From Clostridia bacterium (GTDB lineage Bacteria; Bacillota; Clostridia; Oscillospirales; Acutalibacteraceae), in contig JAFPCP010000021.1 in NCBI GenBank assembly GCA_017423825.1, positions 1 through 37,786 on the forward strand: a DNA stretch of 37,786 nt. Reading direction: 5' to 3'. A program made the translations under genes and the position numbers. Positions 18,555 to 27,093 of the stretch are shown here, piece by piece. The notes under the pieces were generated by a model that was given only the letters and a program-made list of their open reading frames with translations, was not told where the DNA came from and did no database searches. Position 1 is the first letter of the stretch, and the number at the start of each line of letters is the position of its first letter.

Positions 18555-19376
18555 ATGGCATCGCAAGCAAACCTGCGGCAAAAACAGACCAAAGTGCTGT
18601 GTTTTGCTAACAATAAAGGCGGTAGCGGAAAATCCACCTCTTGTGCCAATGTCGGCTATGCTTTGGCACAGCAGGGCAAACGAGTGTTGCTTCTGGACGG
18701 GGATATGCAGATGAATTTGAGCCTGTCCTTCTTCCCGGAGGACCAGGTGTTGGAAATGGCGCAGGGGGAGAAAAACCTCTACCATGCCATTCGTGAGCAA
18801 AAACCATTGACCGACTATATTCTGCCGACAGCGTATACGGGGCTGGATTTGATACCCTCTTCGACGCTGATGAGCGGCATCGAATACGAGCTGTTCACCA
18901 AATGGCAGCGGGAAATGATACTGAAAAAGTGTTTGCAACCGGTGCGGGACAGCGGGGAATATGATTATATCCTGTTAGACGCGCCGCCCACGCTGGGTGG
19001 TTGGGTGATGAACCTGCTTTGTGCGGCGGATGCGCTCATCTTGCCGGTCGAGGCAAGCCCCTGGGGATTGTTTGGTTTGGCGAATATGTTTGAATTTTTG
19101 GCGGCGGTGCGGGAGATGAACCCGACGCTGACGCTGCTCGGCATCGCCTTGACGAAAGTGTCGGTGCGTAAAAATTACTTCAAACAGACCATGGAAATCC
19201 TCGGCGAGATGGAGGACGTGTATGTGTTTGATTCCATCATTCGTGTAGACAGCACGATTGAATGGGCGCAGGACAGCAGTCGCCCGGTCGGCGCATATAA
19301 GGCCAGCAGCCGCAGCGCACAGGAATATGCGGCGTTGGCAAAGGAGGTAGAGGCACGTGTCCATCGGAAAGAATAG
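18555..19376 (+). CDS. ParA/Soj-type partition ATPase
   Basis: The 273-residue protein has the deviant Walker A motif KGGSGKST at residues 21-28, preceded by the usual strand (VLCFANN). LLLDGDMQMNLS is the A' motif, and YDYILLDAPPTLGG is Walker B. ParA proteins bind DNA nonspecifically as ATP dimers and position chromosomes, plasmids or protein cargo. Here it overlaps the next gene, a short ParB-like protein, by 20 nt, so the two are translationally coupled. It follows lysC by 27 nt (GGAGTGG ribosome site) and may share its transcript. The partner lacks a DNA-binding domain, so a chromosome-partition role is less certain than the fold; cargo positioning is an alternative. The stop codon is TAG. 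Confidence 0.9.
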   Translation: MASQANLRQKQTKVLCFANNKGGSGKSTSCANVGYALAQQGKRVLLLDGDMQMNLSLSFFPEDQVLEMAQGEKNLYHAIREQKPLTDYILPTAYTGLDLIPSSTLMSGIEYELFTKWQREMILKKCLQPVRDSGEYDYILLDAPPTLGGWVMNLLCAADALILPVEASPWGLFGLANMFEFLAAVREMNPTLTLLGIALTKVSVRKNYFKQTMEILGEMEDVYVFDSIIRVDSTIEWAQDSSRPVGAYKASSRSAQEYAALAKEVEARVHRKE

Positions 19377-19803
19377 TTTAGCTCGTGCGGCGGCCGCCGC
19401 CGGAAGTTCCGCGACCGTTACACCCGATAAAGAGAAAGTTAGTGCGGTTACGGTGTGCGAGGTTGCTATAGAGGCTATCCTTCCCGCGCGCGGGGACGTA
19501 TGGCCGCAGACGGTGTGCGCATCGCTGGTTGAGTCGGTGAAAGACCACGGCGTTGTGGAGCCGCTGTTGCTGGCTAAAACAGAAAAAGAGGGCCCGGTTT
19601 TGCTGGGCGGCGCGCGTCGGTTGTGCGCGGCCAAGGCTGCCGGTTTGGAGATGGTTCCGGCCATCATCCGCGAAATGACGGGAGCGCAAGCAAAATCTCT
19701 GCGTGCCGAGTTGCGGCGCTTTGCCGGACAAGAGGAGGCAAAGCACGTGTCTGCTGCCACGGCAACGTCTGTGGGACAGGCCATGCCTGATTGGTTATTG
19801 TAA
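19357..19803 (+). CDS. Short ParB-like protein with only the N-terminal domain
   Basis: The 148-residue product starts at GTG 19357 inside the end of the parA-like gene, with AAGGAGGTAGAGGC just upstream. After about 35 variable residues comes a ParB/Srx-like fold: the strand VCEVAIEAILPARG, then SVKDHGVVEPLLLAKTEKEGPVLLGGARRLCAAKAAGLEMVPAIIRE. The GGARR box corresponds to the GERR motif that binds CTP and contacts ParA in full ParB proteins. The protein ends soon afterwards. The central helix-turn-helix that reads parS and the dimerisation domain are absent, so it cannot bind parS in the standard way. It may be an adaptor for the adjacent ATPase. Confidence 0.82.
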   Translation: MSIGKNSLARAAAAAGSSATVTPDKEKVSAVTVCEVAIEAILPARGDVWPQTVCASLVESVKDHGVVEPLLLAKTEKEGPVLLGGARRLCAAKAAGLEMVPAIIREMTGAQAKSLRAELRRFAGQEEAKHVSAATATSVGQAMPDWLL

Positions 19804-20049: not shown

Positions 20050-21396
20050 ATGAATCGGCGTACGTTTAAGCAAGGGATCCATCCTCTCGATGATGGGAAA
20101 GCTTCCACCAAAGACAATCCGGTTCGGGCTATGCGCCCGACCGGAGAGGCGGTGTATCCGCTCAACCAGCATCTGGGCGCCCCGTCCAAACCGGTGGTTG
20201 CGGTGGGCGACGCGGTGCTGGTCGGGCAGACGCTGGCGGCGCCCTCCGAGTTTGTTTCGGCGGCTATTTGTAGCGCAGTTTCCGGCACCGTGAAGGCCAT
20301 TGAGCCACGGCGTGCTGTCAATGGTAGACAGGCGTTGTGTATCGTGGTGGAAAACGACGGACGCTTTGAAGCGGTGTCTGATTTCGATACGCCCCGTACC
20401 GCCACTCAGCTATCCGCACAGGAGATTCTGGATATTATACGGGATGCCGGCATTGTGGGACAAGGCGGTGCGGGGTTCCCTACCCATGTAAAATTGACCG
20501 CGAAGCCCGGCGTGCAACTGCAAACGATTATCGTCAACGCCGTGGAATGTGAGCCATATTTAACGTCGGATTATCGGTTGATGCTGGAACGGCCGGAACA
20601 ATTGGTGGAGGGATTGCAGGTGGTTTTGCAATTGTTTCCGCATGCTAAGGGCGTGATAGCTGTTGAGGATAACAAACCGGAGGCAATTCGTTTGTTGCGG
20701 CAGACGATACAGGGCAATCCGCGCCTTTTGGTGCAAGAGCTGAAAACCAAATATCCGCAGGGAGGCGAGCGCATGCTTATTCACGCCGTCACGGGGCGTG
20801 ACATACATTCCGGCAAACTGCCGATGGAGGTGGGATGTGTGGTGCTGAATGTGTCCACGGTTGTGTCGATTTGGCGGGCGGTGTGTCGCCGCGTGCCGCA
20901 GATTTCCACGATAATGACCGTTGCCGGTGACGGGGCGGCGACTCCTTGCAATATAGAAGTGCCGGTAGGCACGAGTTATCGAGAAGTGCTGGAAGCTGCG
21001 GGCGGAATGAATGGTGAGCCTGAGAAGATGATTGCCGGTGGTCCGATGATGGGACTGGCTATGGTTTCGTTGGATGTGCCGGTGCAAAAGACGGATTCGG
21101 CGCTGCTGCTCATGTTAGAGGACGAGGTTGCGCAGTATGAGCCGACCGCCTGTATTCGATGCGGACGCTGTGTGCGGGCTTGTCCGTCGTTTTTGGTGCC
21201 GCCGACGATGGCGCGCGCGGCGGACCACAATGCATTGGACTGTTTTCAGGCGGTGCACGGCATGGAATGTATTGAATGTGGGTGTTGCACCTATGTGTGT
21301 CCCGCTAAGCGGCGGTTGACGCAAAGTTTCAAAACGGCGAAGGCGGCGGTAAAGCAACAACAGCGGCGCCGCGCCGAGCAAAAGGCGGGCAAGTAA
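20050..21396 (+). CDS. rnfC: Rnf complex subunit C
   Basis: RnfC is the peripheral subunit that binds NADH and FMN in the ferredoxin:NAD+ oxidoreductase. The 448-residue protein starts with FKQGIHPLDDGK, typical of the family, followed by a biotinyl-lipoyl-like section and GQGGAGFPTHVK for nucleotide and FMN binding. Two [4Fe-4S] motifs lie at Cys368, 371, 374, 378 (CIRCGRCVRAC) and Cys407, 410, 413, 417. ATG 20050 has GAGG 6 nt upstream; an in-frame ATG at 20038 is the alternative. It is the first of six genes in the standard clostridial order C-D-G-E-A-B. No clear promoter or Rex-type operator is visible in the 160 bp upstream. Confidence 0.96.
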   Translation: MNRRTFKQGIHPLDDGKASTKDNPVRAMRPTGEAVYPLNQHLGAPSKPVVAVGDAVLVGQTLAAPSEFVSAAICSAVSGTVKAIEPRRAVNGRQALCIVVENDGRFEAVSDFDTPRTATQLSAQEILDIIRDAGIVGQGGAGFPTHVKLTAKPGVQLQTIIVNAVECEPYLTSDYRLMLERPEQLVEGLQVVLQLFPHAKGVIAVEDNKPEAIRLLRQTIQGNPRLLVQELKTKYPQGGERMLIHAVTGRDIHSGKLPMEVGCVVLNVSTVVSIWRAVCRRVPQISTIMTVAGDGAATPCNIEVPVGTSYREVLEAAGGMNGEPEKMIAGGPMMGLAMVSLDVPVQKTDSALLLMLEDEVAQYEPTACIRCGRCVRACPSFLVPPTMARAADHNALDCFQAVHGMECIECGCCTYVCPAKRRLTQSFKTAKAAVKQQQRRRAEQKAGK

Positions 21397-21450
21397 AAAC
21401 GCTGTAACAATAGGCGGCGTGCCGCTTAAAGAAAGGGTGGAATCCTCTCG

Positions 21451-22455
21451 ATGGTTAATGTATCTGTATCCCCGCATATTCGCAGTCGACTCACGACCTC
21501 TATTGTGATGGTAGATGTTGCGATTGCGTTGCTCCCGGCACTGCTGATGGGCGTGTTTGTGTTTGGTCTGCGTGCGTTGTTGGTGATAGCGGTGACGGTG
21601 GCGGCTTGTTTGCTGACGGAATACGTATATCGCCGGCTGATGAAACTTCCCAACACGTTGTCGGACGGCAGTGCGTTGGTGACGGGCTTGATTTTAGCCA
21701 TGAATATGCCGGCGTCGGTACCGTTATGGGTGCCGGTTTTGGGGAGTGTATTTGCCATAGGGCTGGTTAAACAGCTGTTTGGCGGATTAGGTCAAAACAT
21801 CATGAATCCAGCCTTGGCGGCGCGGTGTTTTTTGCTGATTTCGTTTCCGGCTCTTGTGGGCGGGAGCATACCGGCGGTGGGAAATTTATTTGATGGCAAT
21901 CTGTGGCAGGGTTTTCTGTCCCGTATGACTACCGCCACGGTGGACGCTACCTCCACGGCAACTCCGTTGCAACTGTTAAAAGACGGTGGTACGGTGGACC
22001 TGTTGCAGGCGTTTCTGGGCTTACATTCCGGCTGCATCGGTGAGACCTCTACGTTGGCTATCCTACTCGGTGGCGTGTATATGGTGTGGCGGGGTGTTAT
22101 CAGTCCGCGCATACCGGTGGTGTATGTGGTGTCGGCTTGCTTGTGCATCGGCTGCATGCGGTGGTTGTCTGTCGGGGCTATGCCGTCTGCCAACTATCTG
22201 CTCGGGCAGGCATGCACCGGAGGCCTGATGGCGGGAGCTGTTTTCATGGCCACGGATTATGTGACCAGCCCCATCACTCCGGCCGGGCAGTGGATATATG
22301 CAATTTTGCTGGGTTTGTTGACGGCGTTGTTCCGTGTGTTTGGCTCTTATGCTGAGGGAGTGTCGTATGCCATCGTTATCGGCAATACGGTGGTGCCTTT
22401 GATTGAAAAAGTGACGTTACCCCGTCCGTTTGGAAAGCGAGGTGCCGCCCGATGA
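21451..22455 (+). CDS. rnfD: Rnf complex subunit D (membrane flavoprotein)
   Basis: The 334-residue integral membrane subunit has about nine hydrophobic helices and belongs to the NqrB/RnfD family. The sequence ATSTATPLQLL holds Thr171 in the place of the covalently flavinylated Thr of the S-x-A-T motif. The family stretch DGSALVTGLILAMNMP and the C-terminal DYVTSPITPAGQ are clear. RnfD forms part of the ion-translocating core. ATG 21451 follows AAAGGGTGG. Its end overlaps the start of rnfG by 4 nt (translational coupling). Confidence 0.95.
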   Translation: MVNVSVSPHIRSRLTTSIVMVDVAIALLPALLMGVFVFGLRALLVIAVTVAACLLTEYVYRRLMKLPNTLSDGSALVTGLILAMNMPASVPLWVPVLGSVFAIGLVKQLFGGLGQNIMNPALAARCFLLISFPALVGGSIPAVGNLFDGNLWQGFLSRMTTATVDATSTATPLQLLKDGGTVDLLQAFLGLHSGCIGETSTLAILLGGVYMVWRGVISPRIPVVYVVSACLCIGCMRWLSVGAMPSANYLLGQACTGGLMAGAVFMATDYVTSPITPAGQWIYAILLGLLTALFRVFGSYAEGVSYAIVIGNTVVPLIEKVTLPRPFGKRGAAR

Positions 22456-23012
22456 AACAGATTTTGAAAAACGCAGGGGTTTTATTAGCTGTTACGCTGG
22501 TGGCGGCTGTCGGGCTTTCGTTTGTGTACCAGCTCACCAAAGAACCGATTGCGCGGGCGGAATTGCAGGCAAAAGCGGAGGCCTACACGGCGGTGTATGC
22601 GGATGCGGTGTTTGCCAACGTGGAGGACGCCGATGCGGTGTTACAGGCGTATAATGCCACCCTGCCGTCCGGCACGGCGGTGAAGGAAATCCTCGCCGCC
22701 AACAACGCGGGTGGCGCGCATATGGGATATGTGTTATCCGTAACGGCTACGGGCTATGCGGGGGCTGTGGAAATTGCGCTTGGCATTGAAAAAAGCGGTG
22801 TGGTTGTGGGGTATGCGGTGCTCAGTCACAACGAGACACCCGGCTTCGGCGCAAATTGTGAAAACGCGGACGTGCGGCAGCAGTTTATAGGCATTACGTC
22901 GGCAGATGAGATTGACGGCATCACCGGTGCCACCTATACCACAAATGCGTTGAAGAGCGAAACGCAGGCCGCCATTGACCTGGTTAAGCAATTGGAAGGG
23001 GGCGGAAAATGA
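22452..23012 (+). CDS. rnfG: Rnf complex subunit G (covalent FMN protein)
   Basis: The 186-residue protein is anchored by one N-terminal transmembrane helix, with an FMN-binding domain outside the cell. The flavinylation motif DGITGAT places FMN on Thr161, added through a phosphodiester bond by ApbE in known systems. No apbE gene lies in this window. Conserved ETPGFG is also present. It overlaps rnfD and rnfE by 4 nt on each side. Confidence 0.95.
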   Translation: MKQILKNAGVLLAVTLVAAVGLSFVYQLTKEPIARAELQAKAEAYTAVYADAVFANVEDADAVLQAYNATLPSGTAVKEILAANNAGGAHMGYVLSVTATGYAGAVEIALGIEKSGVVVGYAVLSHNETPGFGANCENADVRQQFIGITSADEIDGITGATYTTNALKSETQAAIDLVKQLEGGGK

Positions 23013-23809
23013 TGTTCAAAAAAGCCATGCAACGAATAGGCAACGGCATCCTCAAAGAAAATCCTATTTTTGTGCTTTTATTGGGCATGTGTGCCACCCT
23101 TGCGGTTACCACGTCGGCCATCAACGGATTGGGCATGGGGTTGTCCACGATGGCGGTGTTGGTCGCGTCGAATGGACTGATTTCTTTGTTGCGCAAAATC
23201 ATTCCTGCGGGTGTGCGTATGCCGGCGTATATTGTGATTATTGCGACCTTTGTGACGATTGTGCAACTGGTGTTGCAGGCCTATGTGCCGAGGTTGTATA
23301 CTTCGCTCGGTATTTTCATTCCGCTTATCGTGGTGAATTGCATCATTTTAGGGCGTGCGGAGGCGTATGCTTCGACGCACCCGGTGGCGTTAGCGCTGTG
23401 TGATGGTGTGGGTATGGGACTGGGTTTTACCCTCGCGTTGGCCATCATCGGTTTGGTGCGGGAGTTTTTCGGCAGCGGTTCTGCGTTCGGTATTCCCGTG
23501 ATGCCGGATTGGTACGAGCCCGTGGCGATTTTGGTGATGGCGCCCGGCGCCTTTTTTGTGCTCGCGATTTTGGCGGCATTACAAAACAAATGGCACGCCC
23601 CCAGCGCCACCAACAAAAAGCATGACAGCGATCTCGCGTGCGGCGGGCATTGTGCGGATTGTGCCGGCTGTACAGCGGCGGCGAATCATGCGCAGGTGGC
23701 CGAACAGACCGCGGAAAACGTGCGAAAACTGGCTGAGGAGAAAAAACAAGCGGCCGCGCGAAAAAAAGCCGCGGCGGAAAAGCCGGATGAAGGGGGTGCG
23801 CCGGTATGA
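23009..23809 (+). CDS. rnfE: Rnf complex subunit E with a cysteine-rich and Lys/Ala-rich C-terminal tail
   Basis: RnfE is one of the two related six-helix membrane subunits (NqrD/RnfE) that bind a [2Fe-2S] cluster at the core of the pump. The first about 200 residues show the usual helices, with FVLLLGMCATLAVTTS and FIPLIVVNCIILGRAE carrying the conserved cysteines. The protein is 266 residues, clearly longer than typical RnfE. The extra C-terminus has five Cys in a short space (CGGHCADCAGC and neighbours) and then a Lys/Ala/Glu-rich helix ending EGGAPV. The tail should lie in the cytoplasm and might bind metal. The start is ATG 23009 or 23012, and it overlaps rnfA by 4 nt. Confidence 0.94.
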   Translation: MMFKKAMQRIGNGILKENPIFVLLLGMCATLAVTTSAINGLGMGLSTMAVLVASNGLISLLRKIIPAGVRMPAYIVIIATFVTIVQLVLQAYVPRLYTSLGIFIPLIVVNCIILGRAEAYASTHPVALALCDGVGMGLGFTLALAIIGLVREFFGSGSAFGIPVMPDWYEPVAILVMAPGAFFVLAILAALQNKWHAPSATNKKHDSDLACGGHCADCAGCTAAANHAQVAEQTAENVRKLAEEKKQAAARKKAAAEKPDEGGAPV

Positions 23810-24384
23810 AAACGGTGTTTTTAACGTTGCTCACAACGGCTCTGATAAACAACGTAGTGCTGAGCCAATTCTTGGGGCTGTGTCCGTTTTTGGGCGTATC
23901 CAAGACGGTAAAAACCGCCGCCGGCATGAGTGGCGCGGTCGTTTTTGTCATCACGCTCTCTTCGGCGCTGACGAGTGTGTTGTATGATTTTGTGCTGGTG
24001 CCACTGGATGTGCTGTATATGGAAACGATTGTGTTTATTCTCGTTATCGCGGCGCTGGTGCAGCTGGTGGAAATGGTGCTCAAAAAATCCATTCCCGGCT
24101 TGTATGGGGCTTTGGGTGTGTATCTGCCGCTTATCACCACCAACTGTGCGGTGTTAGGTGTTTCGCTGACAAATGTGCAAAGCGGGCATTCGTTTGGAAT
24201 GAGCGTTTTGTCCGGTTTTGGGACAGCGGTTGGTTTTGGCGTGGCCATTTTGATTTTGGCTGGCTTACGAGAAAAAATGCAGCACAATGAGGTGCCGCAT
24301 GCGTTTCAGGGAATGCCGATTGTGTTGGCGACAGCCGGTTTGATGGCGATTGCGTTTTCCGGATTTTCTGGACTGCAATTTTAA
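23806..24384 (+). CDS. rnfA: Rnf complex subunit A
   Basis: The 192-residue six-helix membrane subunit (NqrE/RnfA) has NNVVLSQFLGLCPFLGVS near the N-terminus and VYLPLITTNCAVLG in the middle. The two conserved Cys regions share an iron-sulfur cluster with RnfE across the membrane. Length and pattern are standard. It overlaps rnfE by 4 nt and is followed 9 nt later by rnfB, with GGGGGTGA in between. Confidence 0.96.
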   Translation: MKTVFLTLLTTALINNVVLSQFLGLCPFLGVSKTVKTAAGMSGAVVFVITLSSALTSVLYDFVLVPLDVLYMETIVFILVIAALVQLVEMVLKKSIPGLYGALGVYLPLITTNCAVLGVSLTNVQSGHSFGMSVLSGFGTAVGFGVAILILAGLREKMQHNEVPHAFQGMPIVLATAGLMAIAFSGFSGLQF

Positions 24385-24393
24385 GGGGGTGAC

Positions 24394-25212
24394 ATGGGTA
24401 TGATGACATCCATTGGTACCGCCGCTGCCGTGATAGGTGGGCTTTCTTTGCTGATTGGTTTGTTGCTGGGCCTCGCCGGGCGGCTGTTTGCCGTCCACGT
24501 GGACGAAAGGGAAGGGATGGTTCGCGAGATGTTGCCCGGGAGCAATTGTGGCGGTTGCGGCTATGCTGGTTGTGACAGCCTTGCAAAAGCCATTGTTAAC
24601 GGGGAAGCGCCTGTCGGCGCGTGCCCGGTGGGCGGCGGAGAGGTTGCCCACCGCGTAGCGGAGATTATGGGGGTTGAGGCGCAGGAGCAAGTGCGTCAGG
24701 TGGCGCACATCCATTGTGCCGGTACCTGCGATAAAGCAAAACGCGAATACGATTATTTTGGTGCGCCGGACTGCCGCCAAGCGGCGCAGGCGCCGGGGCA
24801 CGCCGGCAAGGCGTGTGCGTATGCCTGCTTTGGGTTGGGAACCTGCGTGGACGAATGCCCGGTGGGTGCGATTTCTTTGCGGGATGGTGTCGCCGTGGTG
24901 AATCCGGACGTGTGCATTAGTTGTGGCCGCTGTGTGGGCGTTTGCCCGCAGCGCATCATTTCCATGCGTCCGAAAACCAACCAGGCGGTGGTTTGTTGTT
25001 CCTCCACCGCTCCCGGAAAAGAGGTCAGAATCGTGTGCGCGGCCGGGTGCATTGCTTGCGGCATTTGCCAAAAAGTATGTCCCGCAGGCGCCATCCACGT
25101 AAAAGACAACCTTGCCCGGGTGGATTATGAGAAATGCATTGCGTGCGGGACGTGTGTAAAAAAATGTCCGGTGCAGGTTATTCATCGTGTGGAGAGCCAA
25201 GAAGAGGCTTGA
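24394..25212 (+). CDS. rnfB: Rnf complex subunit B (ferredoxin-accepting iron-sulfur protein)
   Basis: RnfB takes electrons from reduced ferredoxin. The 272-residue protein has an N-terminal membrane helix, then the RnfB-type cluster motif CGGCGYAGC starting at Cys52. Two pairs of ferredoxin-like [4Fe-4S] motifs follow: CFGLGTCVDEC with CISCGRCVGVC, and CIACGICQKVC with CIACGTCVKKC. That gives room for about five clusters. It closes the rnfCDGEAB operon. Two further extracytoplasmic genes of probably related function lie downstream after a 133-nt gap. Confidence 0.96.
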   Translation: MGMMTSIGTAAAVIGGLSLLIGLLLGLAGRLFAVHVDEREGMVREMLPGSNCGGCGYAGCDSLAKAIVNGEAPVGACPVGGGEVAHRVAEIMGVEAQEQVRQVAHIHCAGTCDKAKREYDYFGAPDCRQAAQAPGHAGKACAYACFGLGTCVDECPVGAISLRDGVAVVNPDVCISCGRCVGVCPQRIISMRPKTNQAVVCCSSTAPGKEVRIVCAAGCIACGICQKVCPAGAIHVKDNLARVDYEKCIACGTCVKKCPVQVIHRVESQEEA

Positions 25213-25345: not shown

Positions 25346-26320
25346 ATGAAAAGACTATGTGTATTTCTTTGCTGTGCCTTGCTGGTGTTATCCTTGGCGG
25401 GTTGCAGCAAGAAAGACGATACCCCGGCGGGGGATGCCGGTACGACCAAAGGGGATAGAAAAATCGGTTTGGGGCACGTGTCTTCCCTTACGATGGATGG
25501 CACAGACAAAACACGCGTAAAAACCACCGTGGCAGCGGTTGTGCTGGACAAGGATGGCCGCATTGCGTCCTGTGAATTGGACGAATTGGATTTTGTTGTG
25601 ACCTTGTCCGGCGGTGCGCCGCAGAGCGTATCCGACCTCACCACAAAAGGGGAGAAAGAGGATGCCTATATCCCGACAAAAGAGGATATCGGCTCCGACA
25701 AAGGCTTGACCACGCCGTGGCACGAGCAGGCAGATGCCTTTTGCGATTATGCAGAGGGGAAAACGGTGGGTGAATTGACCGGCCTGGCTACCACCGATGG
25801 CAAAAGCGCCGAAATCAAGGGATGCGATTTGGTGGTGACGGATTTCATTCAGGCGGTGAGTCGTGCGGCGTCGGGGGCGATGACGCACGCCATGGCGGCC
25901 GGCGACGATTTGGAACTGGCTATCACCGCGATTCCAGGGGATAGCGCCGCCAACGATAAGGTGCAATATACCATTGAAATGGCGGCGGTTGCGCTGAATG
26001 AAAAGGATGTCATTACAGGGTGTATGACCGACACCTTGGACGCCAAAATGACGATGGAAAACGGTGTATTCACCACGGTGTCCGGTCCGGTGGAAAGCAA
26101 GCGCGATGCGGGGGATGCCTATGGCATGAAAGAAGCGTCCGGCATCAAGCGGGAATGGTATGAACAAGCCGATGCGTTTGACACCTACGTGCGTGGCAAA
26201 ACCGCGGCGCAACTTGCCGACATGAAACTCGGCGCAGATGGGAAAACGGATGCGATTTCCGGCTGTACGATTACCATCACGTCGATGCTCAAAAACGTCA
26301 TAAAGGCGGCGCGAAAATAA
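25346..26320 (+). CDS. Rnf-adjacent lipoprotein made of two tandem repeats
   Basis: The 324-residue product has a lipoprotein signal (MKRLCVFLCCALLVLSLAGC). Two related modules of about 140 residues follow. Each has a TTVAAVVLD/TIEMAAVALN-like strand and a WHEQADAF.DY..GKT / WYEQADAFDTYVRGKT motif. Each ends with a GCDLVVTDFIQAVSRAA / GCTITITSMLKNVIKAA helix. I do not know a characterised member; the final GCTI segment is faintly like the SGAT region of FMN-binding domains but lacks the Thr acceptor pattern. ATG 25346 has GGAGG 8 nt upstream. Its position between rnfB and a second RnfG-like protein suggests a role in extracytoplasmic electron transfer or cofactor delivery, which is an inference from context. 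Confidence 0.8.
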   Translation: MKRLCVFLCCALLVLSLAGCSKKDDTPAGDAGTTKGDRKIGLGHVSSLTMDGTDKTRVKTTVAAVVLDKDGRIASCELDELDFVVTLSGGAPQSVSDLTTKGEKEDAYIPTKEDIGSDKGLTTPWHEQADAFCDYAEGKTVGELTGLATTDGKSAEIKGCDLVVTDFIQAVSRAASGAMTHAMAAGDDLELAITAIPGDSAANDKVQYTIEMAAVALNEKDVITGCMTDTLDAKMTMENGVFTTVSGPVESKRDAGDAYGMKEASGIKREWYEQADAFDTYVRGKTAAQLADMKLGADGKTDAISGCTITITSMLKNVIKAARK

Positions 26321-26344
26321 AATAAACAAGAAAGGGTGCTACCG

Positions 26345-26522
26345 ATGCACAAGCGGCGTTGTATACGTGTGGGCTGGTCGGTTGCACCTTTTTTTGGATA
26401 CCCGCCCGCACGCGGTCACATGTAGGGGTGTGTTGTCGGGCGCATTATTCACTCTGCCCATAGAGCGGGGATTGTCTTCGTTAGAACCGTTTTCGAAGGC
26501 GGAGACCTATGTAACGGATTAA
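26345..26522 (+). pseudogene. Possible broken small gene between two Rnf-associated genes
   Basis: ATG 26345 follows AAAGGGTG and runs 26 codons (MHKRRCIRVGWSVAPFFGY and on) to TAG 26423. After a run of seven T at 26389-26395, another frame reads FLDTRPHAVTCRGVLSGALF and ends ERGLSSLEPFSKAETYVTD at TAA 26520, directly before the next ribosome site. Joined through the T run, the two would make one small membrane-targeted protein. The coding signal is weak. Confidence 0.3.
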
Positions 26523-26535
26523 ACAGGAGGACGGC

Positions 26536-27093
26536 ATGAATAAGAAACCTAAACGCATTTCACGGGCTTGGTCGGTGTGTTTGTTGGCAATCATGGGGAT
26601 CGGGTTATGGCCGCTCAGCGGTTTGTGGTATACCGCCGTGCGGGCGCCGTATCTCATCCCGGATGCCGTTGCAGTGCAAACCGCCGGCGCACAGGCTTTG
26701 GCGGTTGACAAAGGGCAGTTGGCACGGTATGGCGTGGTGTCGGCCGCCGAGGCGTTGGATGCGGATGGGCACATCTCAGGGTATGTGCTCATCAGCGAAC
26801 AGCAGGGATATAAATCGGTGATTCGGGTGCAATCCACCTTCACGCCGGATGGCGCTCATCTGGCAGGCGTTCGGGTGTTGTCCCAAAATGAAACGGAATA
26901 TTTGGGCGACCGCATCGCCGCAGAGGGTTTTACGATGCCGTTTGCGGGGCGCACGCTTCCTGTGAAACTATGGGGTTCAGCGGCGCTGGGTTCGCCGGTG
27001 GACGGCTTGTCCGGTTCGACGATATCGGCGAGCGCGGTGGTCACAGCGGTGAACAACGCCCACGCTTTTTTGCGGGCATATTTGGCGGCGTAA
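26536..27093 (+). CDS. Second RnfG-like FMN-binding protein
   Basis: The 185-residue protein has an N-terminal membrane helix (about residues 12-30) and an extracytoplasmic FMN-binding domain. YVLISEQQGYKSVIRVQSTF and VRVLSQNETEYLGDRI resemble the GYKG and ETPGLG regions of RnfG. VDGLSGSTISASAV supplies the flavinylation site with Thr162 as the likely FMN acceptor (SGST in place of SGAT). AGGAGG lies 5 nt before ATG 26536. It differs from the RnfG encoded 4 kb upstream and could be a loading partner, a stand-in subunit or an independent extracellular electron carrier. Regulation with the Rnf operon is plausible because no terminator was seen between them. Confidence 0.85.
   Translation: MNKKPKRISRAWSVCLLAIMGIGLWPLSGLWYTAVRAPYLIPDAVAVQTAGAQALAVDKGQLARYGVVSAAEALDADGHISGYVLISEQQGYKSVIRVQSTFTPDGAHLAGVRVLSQNETEYLGDRIAAEGFTMPFAGRTLPVKLWGSAALGSPVDGLSGSTISASAVVTAVNNAHAFLRAYLAA

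Follow-up and report, generated by a model that had tools for sequence, protein, structure and literature searches.

The rnf operon and the two genes that follow it

The window, i.e. the whole stretch of 37,786 nucleotides of Clostridia DNA that was analysed, contains the complete gene set for an Rnf complex, followed on the same strand by genes for two proteins that we call Lipo and FMN2. The features needed for the discussion below are as follows.

20056..21396, + strand: rnfC (TIGR01945, 488.5 bits; cut-off 246)
21451..22455, + strand: rnfD (TIGR01946, 297.5 bits; cut-off 207)
22452..23012, + strand: rnfG, single FMN_bind domain with the motif DGITGAT (PF04205, 57.2 bits; TIGR01947, 90 bits, under the cut-off of 102)
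23009..23809, + strand: rnfE (TIGR01948, 240.2 bits; cut-off 213.4)
23806..24384, + strand: rnfA (TIGR01943, 250.5 bits; cut-off 229.3)
24394..25212, + strand: rnfB (TIGR01944, 109 bits; cut-off 68.7)
25346..26320, + strand: Lipo, predicted 324-aa lipoprotein with two divergent FMN_bind-type domains (lipobox, profile, model and fold)
26249..26269, + strand: candidate flavinylation motif DAISGCT of Lipo domain 2, residues 302-308, acceptor Thr308 (conserved T/S acceptor)
26321..26535, no strand: gap of 215 bp, the place of apbE in the same-genus relative L007 (gene-order comparison)
26536..27093, + strand: FMN2, predicted 185-aa membrane-anchored FMN_bind protein with the motif DGLSGST (PF04205, 46.1 bits)

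The rnf genes form one complete and intact run, rnfCDGEAB, at 20056-25212, in which RnfA, RnfB, RnfC, RnfD and RnfE score above their TIGRFAM cut-offs and RnfG, below that of TIGR01947, is recognised through PF04205. The original prediction was that this operon is extended by two further genes, and both open reading frames are indeed found after it, each preceded by a purine-rich ribosome-binding site, with 133 bp between rnfB and Lipo and 215 bp between Lipo and FMN2. A sequence scan of the two gaps found no sigma-70-like promoter on the + strand and only short terminator-like stems, making it plausible that rnf, Lipo and FMN2 are carried on one transcript. Rfam has no matches within the window. 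A ParA/ParB-like pair, which L007 and L009 also have, lies between lysC and rnfC (18555-19803), and a putative amidase gene (PF12671; 27198-27758, - strand) lies between FMN2 and serS, where L007 has eetA-eetB.

Lipo as a divergent tandem FMN_bind lipoprotein

Lipo has a lipobox, LAGC, with Cys20, and two domains of about 145 residues each, domain 1 at about residues 36-180 and domain 2 at about 185-324. That the protein is a tandem repeat, as had been proposed, is borne out by comparison of its halves: their BLOSUM62 local score is 167, against a mean of 33 (sd 6, maximum 63) for 500 shuffles of one half, and profile-profile comparison of domain 1 with domain 2 gives a probability of 100% and an E of 6.5e-56. 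The repeat is confined to the protein level; Tandem Repeats Finder reports no DNA-level repeat at Lipo.

To which family, then, does Lipo belong? PF04205 gives 16.6 bits near the C-terminus, below the gathering cut-off of 22 bits, and matches at E<=0.01 in just 1 of 64 aligned members of the Lipo family. The family profile leads instead to 2KZX, with an E of 1.8e-8 for the whole protein and 1.1e-13 for domain 2, and the aligned piece of 2KZX, which contains DAISGAT, scores 25.6 bits with PF04205 and so lies over the cut-off of 22. Both 2KZX (A3DHT5 from C. thermocellum, a 131-residue chain) and 3O6U (CPE2226 from C. perfringens, a 120-121-residue chain) are described as PF04205 proteins (PMC4348036), both were solved without flavin, and they are the leading PF04205-type profile and fold matches of Lipo; where Lipo has DAISGCT, 2KZX has the canonical DAISGAT.

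Predicted structures point the same way. The models have pLDDT values of 91.3 (whole Lipo, pTM 0.86) and 90.0 (domain 2), and with neither of them did Foldseek find anything in the PDB at E<=0.001. Among the Foldseek candidates, VIA-align ranks 2KZX first for whole Lipo (Z 8.9), followed by 2L4X (7.2) and 3O6U (7.0); for domain 2, 3O6U and 2KZX are level at the top (Z 8.3), followed by 2L4X (6.6), and the Z values for 2L4X are inside the range that the tool calls common. As 2L4X is apo-IscU, an IscU-type Fe-S reading of Lipo was considered and dropped, since the profile searches led to 2KZX and to no IscU protein and the Z values are in that common range. Additionally, the Lipo-family profile was compared with a profile of RnfG and FMN2 (alignment A2, 19 sequences), giving 89.7% for the whole family, 53% for domain 1 alone and 9.8% for domain 2 alone, for which the best of 20 column-shuffled controls reached 0.6%. 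The homology bridge from Lipo to FMN_bind is stronger via 2KZX than via this profile, and both homology and fold, i.e. the E of 1.1e-13 to 2KZX and the Z of 8.3 to 2KZX and 3O6U, place Lipo with FMN_bind.

A family that the original prediction had to leave unknown can thus be given a probable place: going by profiles and models, we take Lipo for a lipoprotein with divergent FMN_bind domains in tandem, of either the PplA/Cad or the FMN-bind2 type. L020 (9383-11764) and L026 (9542-10924) encode fusion proteins in which a canonical FMN_bind domain at the N-terminus precedes Lipo repeats at the C-terminus; apbE follows in both.

Candidate flavinylation sites

The published flavinylation motif is Dxx[S/T]GA[S/T], and a review reports that replacing its Ala by Val merely halves flavinylation, whereas loss of the Thr abolishes it (PMC12052999). 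The DAISGCT of Lipo domain 2 is one residue off this motif. Domain 1 has SAEIKGCD in the corresponding place, with Asp161 at the acceptor position, and its acceptor is also gone in L007-L010, the closest four relatives (D in three, N in one). Across the aligned Lipo members, a T or S occupies the acceptor position of domain 2 in 63 of 64 sequences (the other has a gap) and that of domain 1 in 59 of 64, and the two acceptor columns rank among the four columns of the alignment that are richest in mixed S/T. The residues before the acceptor go with genomic context; rnf loci mostly have AGCT, loci with Ndh2 or prenyl-enzyme genes mostly have ASVS, and SSVT is present in about half of the Lipo loci that have neither. 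In other words, most members deviate more from the canonical motif than DAISGCT does. The original prediction had placed a flavin site on FMN2 only; this restriction should be given up, as Thr308 in Lipo domain 2 also stands in a near-canonical motif.

How far might ApbE tolerate such variants? The pattern D[ATV][IV][ST]GCT is present in five single-domain lipoproteins adjoining apbE in three genera of the window's family, their genes being tail-to-tail with apbE and not in one operon with it. In the class of L078's genome (annotated Bacilli), the domain 2 profile has matches at E<=1e-4 in 112 of 346 genomes, and among the best 30 loci, L136, L139 and L142 have canonical GAT sites and L119, L121 and L131 have SGAT plus a GVT or SVT site within one protein. 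Because the motifs of these relatives form a continuum from canonical to variant, SGCT is a plausible natural ApbE site. In the article listings and passages covered, we found no SGCT-type flavinylation site, and no modified protein of this kind is known to us.

These sites also bear on an alternative in which Lipo is a pseudo-FMN_bind protein that keeps the fold and carries no covalent flavin, acting as a loose binder of flavin or another ligand, as a scaffold, or as a flavin-handing partner of ApbE/EetB. Noncanonical motifs in nearly all members, the loss of the domain 1 acceptor from the window protein and from L007-L010, and the near-absence of PF04205 matches from the family would all suit such a protein; a hydroxyl acceptor conserved in domain 2 of 63 of 64 members, the D..[ST]GCT kept by the five single-domain relatives beside apbE, and the pairing of SGAT with GVT or SVT within one protein argue against it, and we consider it unlikely. 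We prefer the reading in which Lipo is itself flavinylated, and from the motifs we infer covalent FMN on Thr308 of Lipo and on Thr162 of FMN2.

Gene neighbourhoods of the Lipo family

A search of 84,980 species genomes via short conserved peptides yielded 78 Lipo loci, and because of this method the set is skewed toward the close family. Rnf genes accompany Lipo at 28 of these loci, and 27 of those have the complete C, D, E, A and B. At 22 loci that show no rnf gene, Lipo is accompanied by genes for Ndh2, for prenyl enzymes or for both. The remaining 28 have neither, and several of them are cut by contig ends. ApbE is the steadiest partner of the family: it is present at 64 of the 78 loci (within 1.5 kb at 62), and the remaining 14 genomes carry it elsewhere. 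An additional 18 loci, of which one belongs to the window's own genome and 17 to its family, divide into 13 that are rnf-linked, two that are Ndh2-linked and three that are neither, all 18 with ApbE; L098 and L007 are one contig and are therefore counted in both sets. The typical Ndh2 locus has genes for Ndh2, a polyprenyl synthase, UbiA, Lipo, ApbE, a NusG_II protein that we take to be EetA, and a PF07456 protein. The last of these is described as EetB, an FAD exporter (PMC9973259).

The proposed arrangement with rnf is therefore a recurrent one (28/78 and 13/18 loci), but it is not specific to Rnf. No rnf gene is seen within the available stretch at 50 of the 78 loci, several of them cut by contig ends, and because of this the expectation that Lipo homologues would be found chiefly beside rnf fails, taken literally.

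For alignment A1, the window and L085 were combined with 62 of the 78 loci, omitting four fusions or long repeats, six partial sequences, five near-duplicates and one whose start was unclear; A3, which was thinned, has 41 rows, L078 and L082 having been dropped from 43 prepared references. Genome-level counts say little. Among 150 genomes of the window's family, a tally of 120 with A1-profile matches consists mostly of N-terminal (signal peptide) matches, and the full-length count is 19 near-whole-profile matches in 18 genomes. All 18 have ApbE and Rnf (Fisher p 0.37 and 0.044), a weak co-occurrence because ApbE (137/150) and Rnf-Nqr (123/150) are common. The next six A1-profile matches (35-55 bits) are the five single-domain GCT lipoproteins and L112, a protein of 283 aa that lacks a GCT-type motif and whose contig carries no apbE. 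ApbE and Lipo are found with zero PF04205 matches in two of 49 genomes, those of L073 and L043, which are drafts of unstated completeness.

Other layouts were seen. In L094 (4729-7140), Lipo is separated from apbE by genes that appear by eye to encode a TetR-type regulator and an ABC transporter. Tissierellia-type loci (L041, L056, L061, L074 and L083) have a regulator-like gene (IclR according to the annotation of L083), Lipo and apbE, with an ABC-transporter gene pair after apbE in several and neither rnf nor Ndh2 nearby. L068 (4444-6821) has tandem RnfG genes, two in one rnf operon.

Might Lipo then be an ApbE-dependent flavoprotein of some other pathway, Ndh2-type or as yet unknown, which stands in the rnf operon because both it and Rnf need ApbE and flavin export, with Rnf not its donor? 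The 50 loci that show no rnf would fit, as would L008, where Lipo lies between lysC and serS and rnf is absent. On the other hand, rnfB is followed by Lipo, directly or via eetA-eetB, in most of the rnf loci whose gene order was compared; RnfC_N scores over its cut-off in 45 of 50 genomes whose Lipo is not rnf-linked, a model that also responds in genomes such as that of Bacillus subtilis; and L008 and L009 come from genomes in which a full Rnf operon lies at another place. This alternative appears to us quite unlikely, and we retain Rnf as the probable donor at loci such as that of the window.

A second operon in the same genome

What became of apbE at the window locus? The same-genus relative L007 has the order lysC-parA-parB-rnfCDGEAB-Lipo-apbE-FMN2-eetA-eetB-serS, and the flanks of the window match it; apbE, eetA and eetB are missing from the window locus, and no significant remnant of apbE was detected in the 215-bp gap between Lipo and FMN2. 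L009 has lysC-parA-parB-Lipo and then a contig end, and L008 has lysC-Lipo-serS. A second operon, rnfCDGEAB-eetA-eetB-Lipo-apbE, is present elsewhere in the window genome (L085) and in the genomes of L008 and L009 (L103 and L104). In the metagenome-assembled genome (MAG) of the window it lies on contig C57 (L085 6134-14775), where a second complete Rnf operon comprises an RnfG with two FMN_bind domains, eetA, eetB, a paralogue of Lipo at 30% identity and the sole ApbE of the MAG. L007, L010, L011 and L017 come from genomes with a single full-length Lipo, and L017 has rnf and Lipo with apbE absent from the available stretch, its single ApbE being on another contig. The RnfE proteins of both operons have a Cys-rich C-terminal tail, CGGHCADCAGC and CAGCPNASHCHVETC (window 23009-23809; L085 10675-11364).

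Contamination was considered as the source of C57. The GC contents of the two stretches are close (0.494 against 0.501), but those of the two operons lie further apart (0.508 against 0.557). The contig may be a binning error, and we keep it in the MAG because the L008 and L009 genomes have the same operon type. From the gene orders, the window operon has apparently lost redundant cofactor genes, apbE, eetA and eetB, with loss rather than gain the probable direction in this lineage, and we read Lipo and FMN2 of the window as now relying on the second operon for these genes.

FMN2 and the question of a second RnfG

FMN2 is a member of PF04205 (46.1 bits; cut-off 22) with one N-terminal hydrophobic stretch. 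Its motif, DGLSGST, departs from the canonical one at the Ala, and the first D and last T are kept in 7/7 sequences, in keeping with the flavin site predicted at Thr162. The original prediction that both products are extracytoplasmic and redox-linked likewise agrees with what was found, namely a lipobox on Lipo, the hydrophobic stretch on FMN2, and FMN_bind-type domains on both. FMN2 relatives are present on six contigs (L007, L010, L011, L094, L095 and L099), all with rnf, these being loci that were fetched through Lipo.

It had also been suggested that one of the products is an alternative RnfG, an idea that finds no support for Lipo and little for FMN2. That FMN2 is a spare or second RnfG inside the Rnf complex strikes us as very improbable: it aligns with RnfG across the FMN_bind region, and it is present in window-type operons with a one-domain RnfG where the C57 operon has a two-domain RnfG, but its 65.2 bits fall below the 102 that TIGR01947 requires, its operon already contains a complete rnfG, and L011 has a long RnfG and FMN2 together.

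Relation to known systems

Much of the surrounding territory is already described: PplA/Cad lipoproteins, FMN-bind2 tandems, eetB near Rnf, and multi-flavinylated RnfG. Cad-type proteins are reported to have one or two SGAT motifs and to keep company with apbE, NADH dehydrogenase 2 and prenyltransferases, cad-apbE pairs occurring only where rnf is missing; Cad, the Enterococcus pheromone-precursor lipoprotein, was modelled there on 3O6U (PMC7074142). For Lipo, too, a pheromone-precursor role was considered. Judged by published descriptions, Lipo resembles PplA/Cad (cAD1 precursor; Listeria and Enterococcus) in having a lipobox and two FMN_bind-type domains, the first of which is recognised through its profile similarity to the second, and its family is likewise coupled to apbE and, at 22 of 78 loci, to Ndh2 and/or prenyl-enzyme genes; given these shared neighbours, Lipo sits where PplA/Cad sits. 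In contrast to PplA/Cad, the window Lipo has no SGAT, with SGCT on domain 2 only and GCD on domain 1, it follows rnfB, and apbE is missing from its locus. The Lipo family also breaks the reported pattern of cad-apbE only in the absence of rnf (PMC7074142).

FMN-bind2 is described (Huang et al. 2024, PMC10979944) as a large FMN_bind subtype with domains of about 160 aa, often in even copy number, each pair of which carries two flavinylated sites; Lipo has two domains of about 145 aa but has lost one of the two sites. Meheust et al. proposed that multi-flavinylated RnfG opens a second electron path (PMC8238504), and Lipo and FMN2 would similarly place FMN_bind domains of an rnf cluster on the outer face, albeit as separate proteins. 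Finally, 572 Clostridia genomes are reported to have eetB (PF07456) near Rnf genes, EetB being read as an FAD exporter for ApbE, and the passages covered of that study describe no PplA-like protein in these EetB-ApbE-Rnf clusters (PMC9973259). Within the article listings and passages covered, we found no description of this lipoprotein family in rnf operons.

A working model and its implications

The operon, the lipobox, the two FMN_bind-type domains, the conservation of the acceptor, the linkage to apbE and the two donor contexts are all features of the sequences, and we lean towards one explanation of the whole: Lipo and FMN2 would be outer-face, ApbE-flavinylated electron relays fed by Rnf. 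Rnf carries ferredoxin electrons to the FMN that RnfG bears on the outer face, from where they return to NAD at RnfC. Beyond these features, we infer the flavinylation, the electron flow, its direction and the acceptor. ApbE, an exported flavin transferase, would attach FMN to Thr308 of Lipo and Thr162 of FMN2, with ApbE and the flavin exporter EetB supplied by the second Rnf operon, on the other contig of the window genome. Electrons would then pass from reduced ferredoxin through Rnf to the outer-face FMN of RnfG, onward to FMN2 and Lipo, and finally to an acceptor outside the membrane, with FMN2 as the near relay and Lipo as a mobile relay on its lipid anchor. In the window's own genome no flavinylated or terminal reductase was found, the other PF04205 matches being RnfG and the two-domain RnfG. 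Elsewhere among the Clostridia, Ndh2 and quinone would take the place of Rnf as the electron source of this lipoprotein family.

A broader version of this model can be offered tentatively. In many Clostridia, Rnf might double as a ferredoxin-driven outward reductase; one lipoprotein family might serve two donors, Rnf or Ndh2 with quinone; ApbE might accept Dxx[A/S/T][G/S][A/C/V][T/S]; and the failure of PF04205 to detect the family might be why it has gone unnoticed.

The implications are several. A Cys-for-Ala motif offers a direct probe of the range of ApbE specificity. A survey based on PF04205 would miss the Lipo family, and flavin-based electron transfer in Gram-positive bacteria may thus exceed current counts. 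If Rnf does feed lipid-anchored flavoproteins on the outer face, electrons from fermentation ferredoxin could exit the cell, which would bear on redox balance in Clostridia, on the reduction of iron and other acceptors, and on energy conservation.
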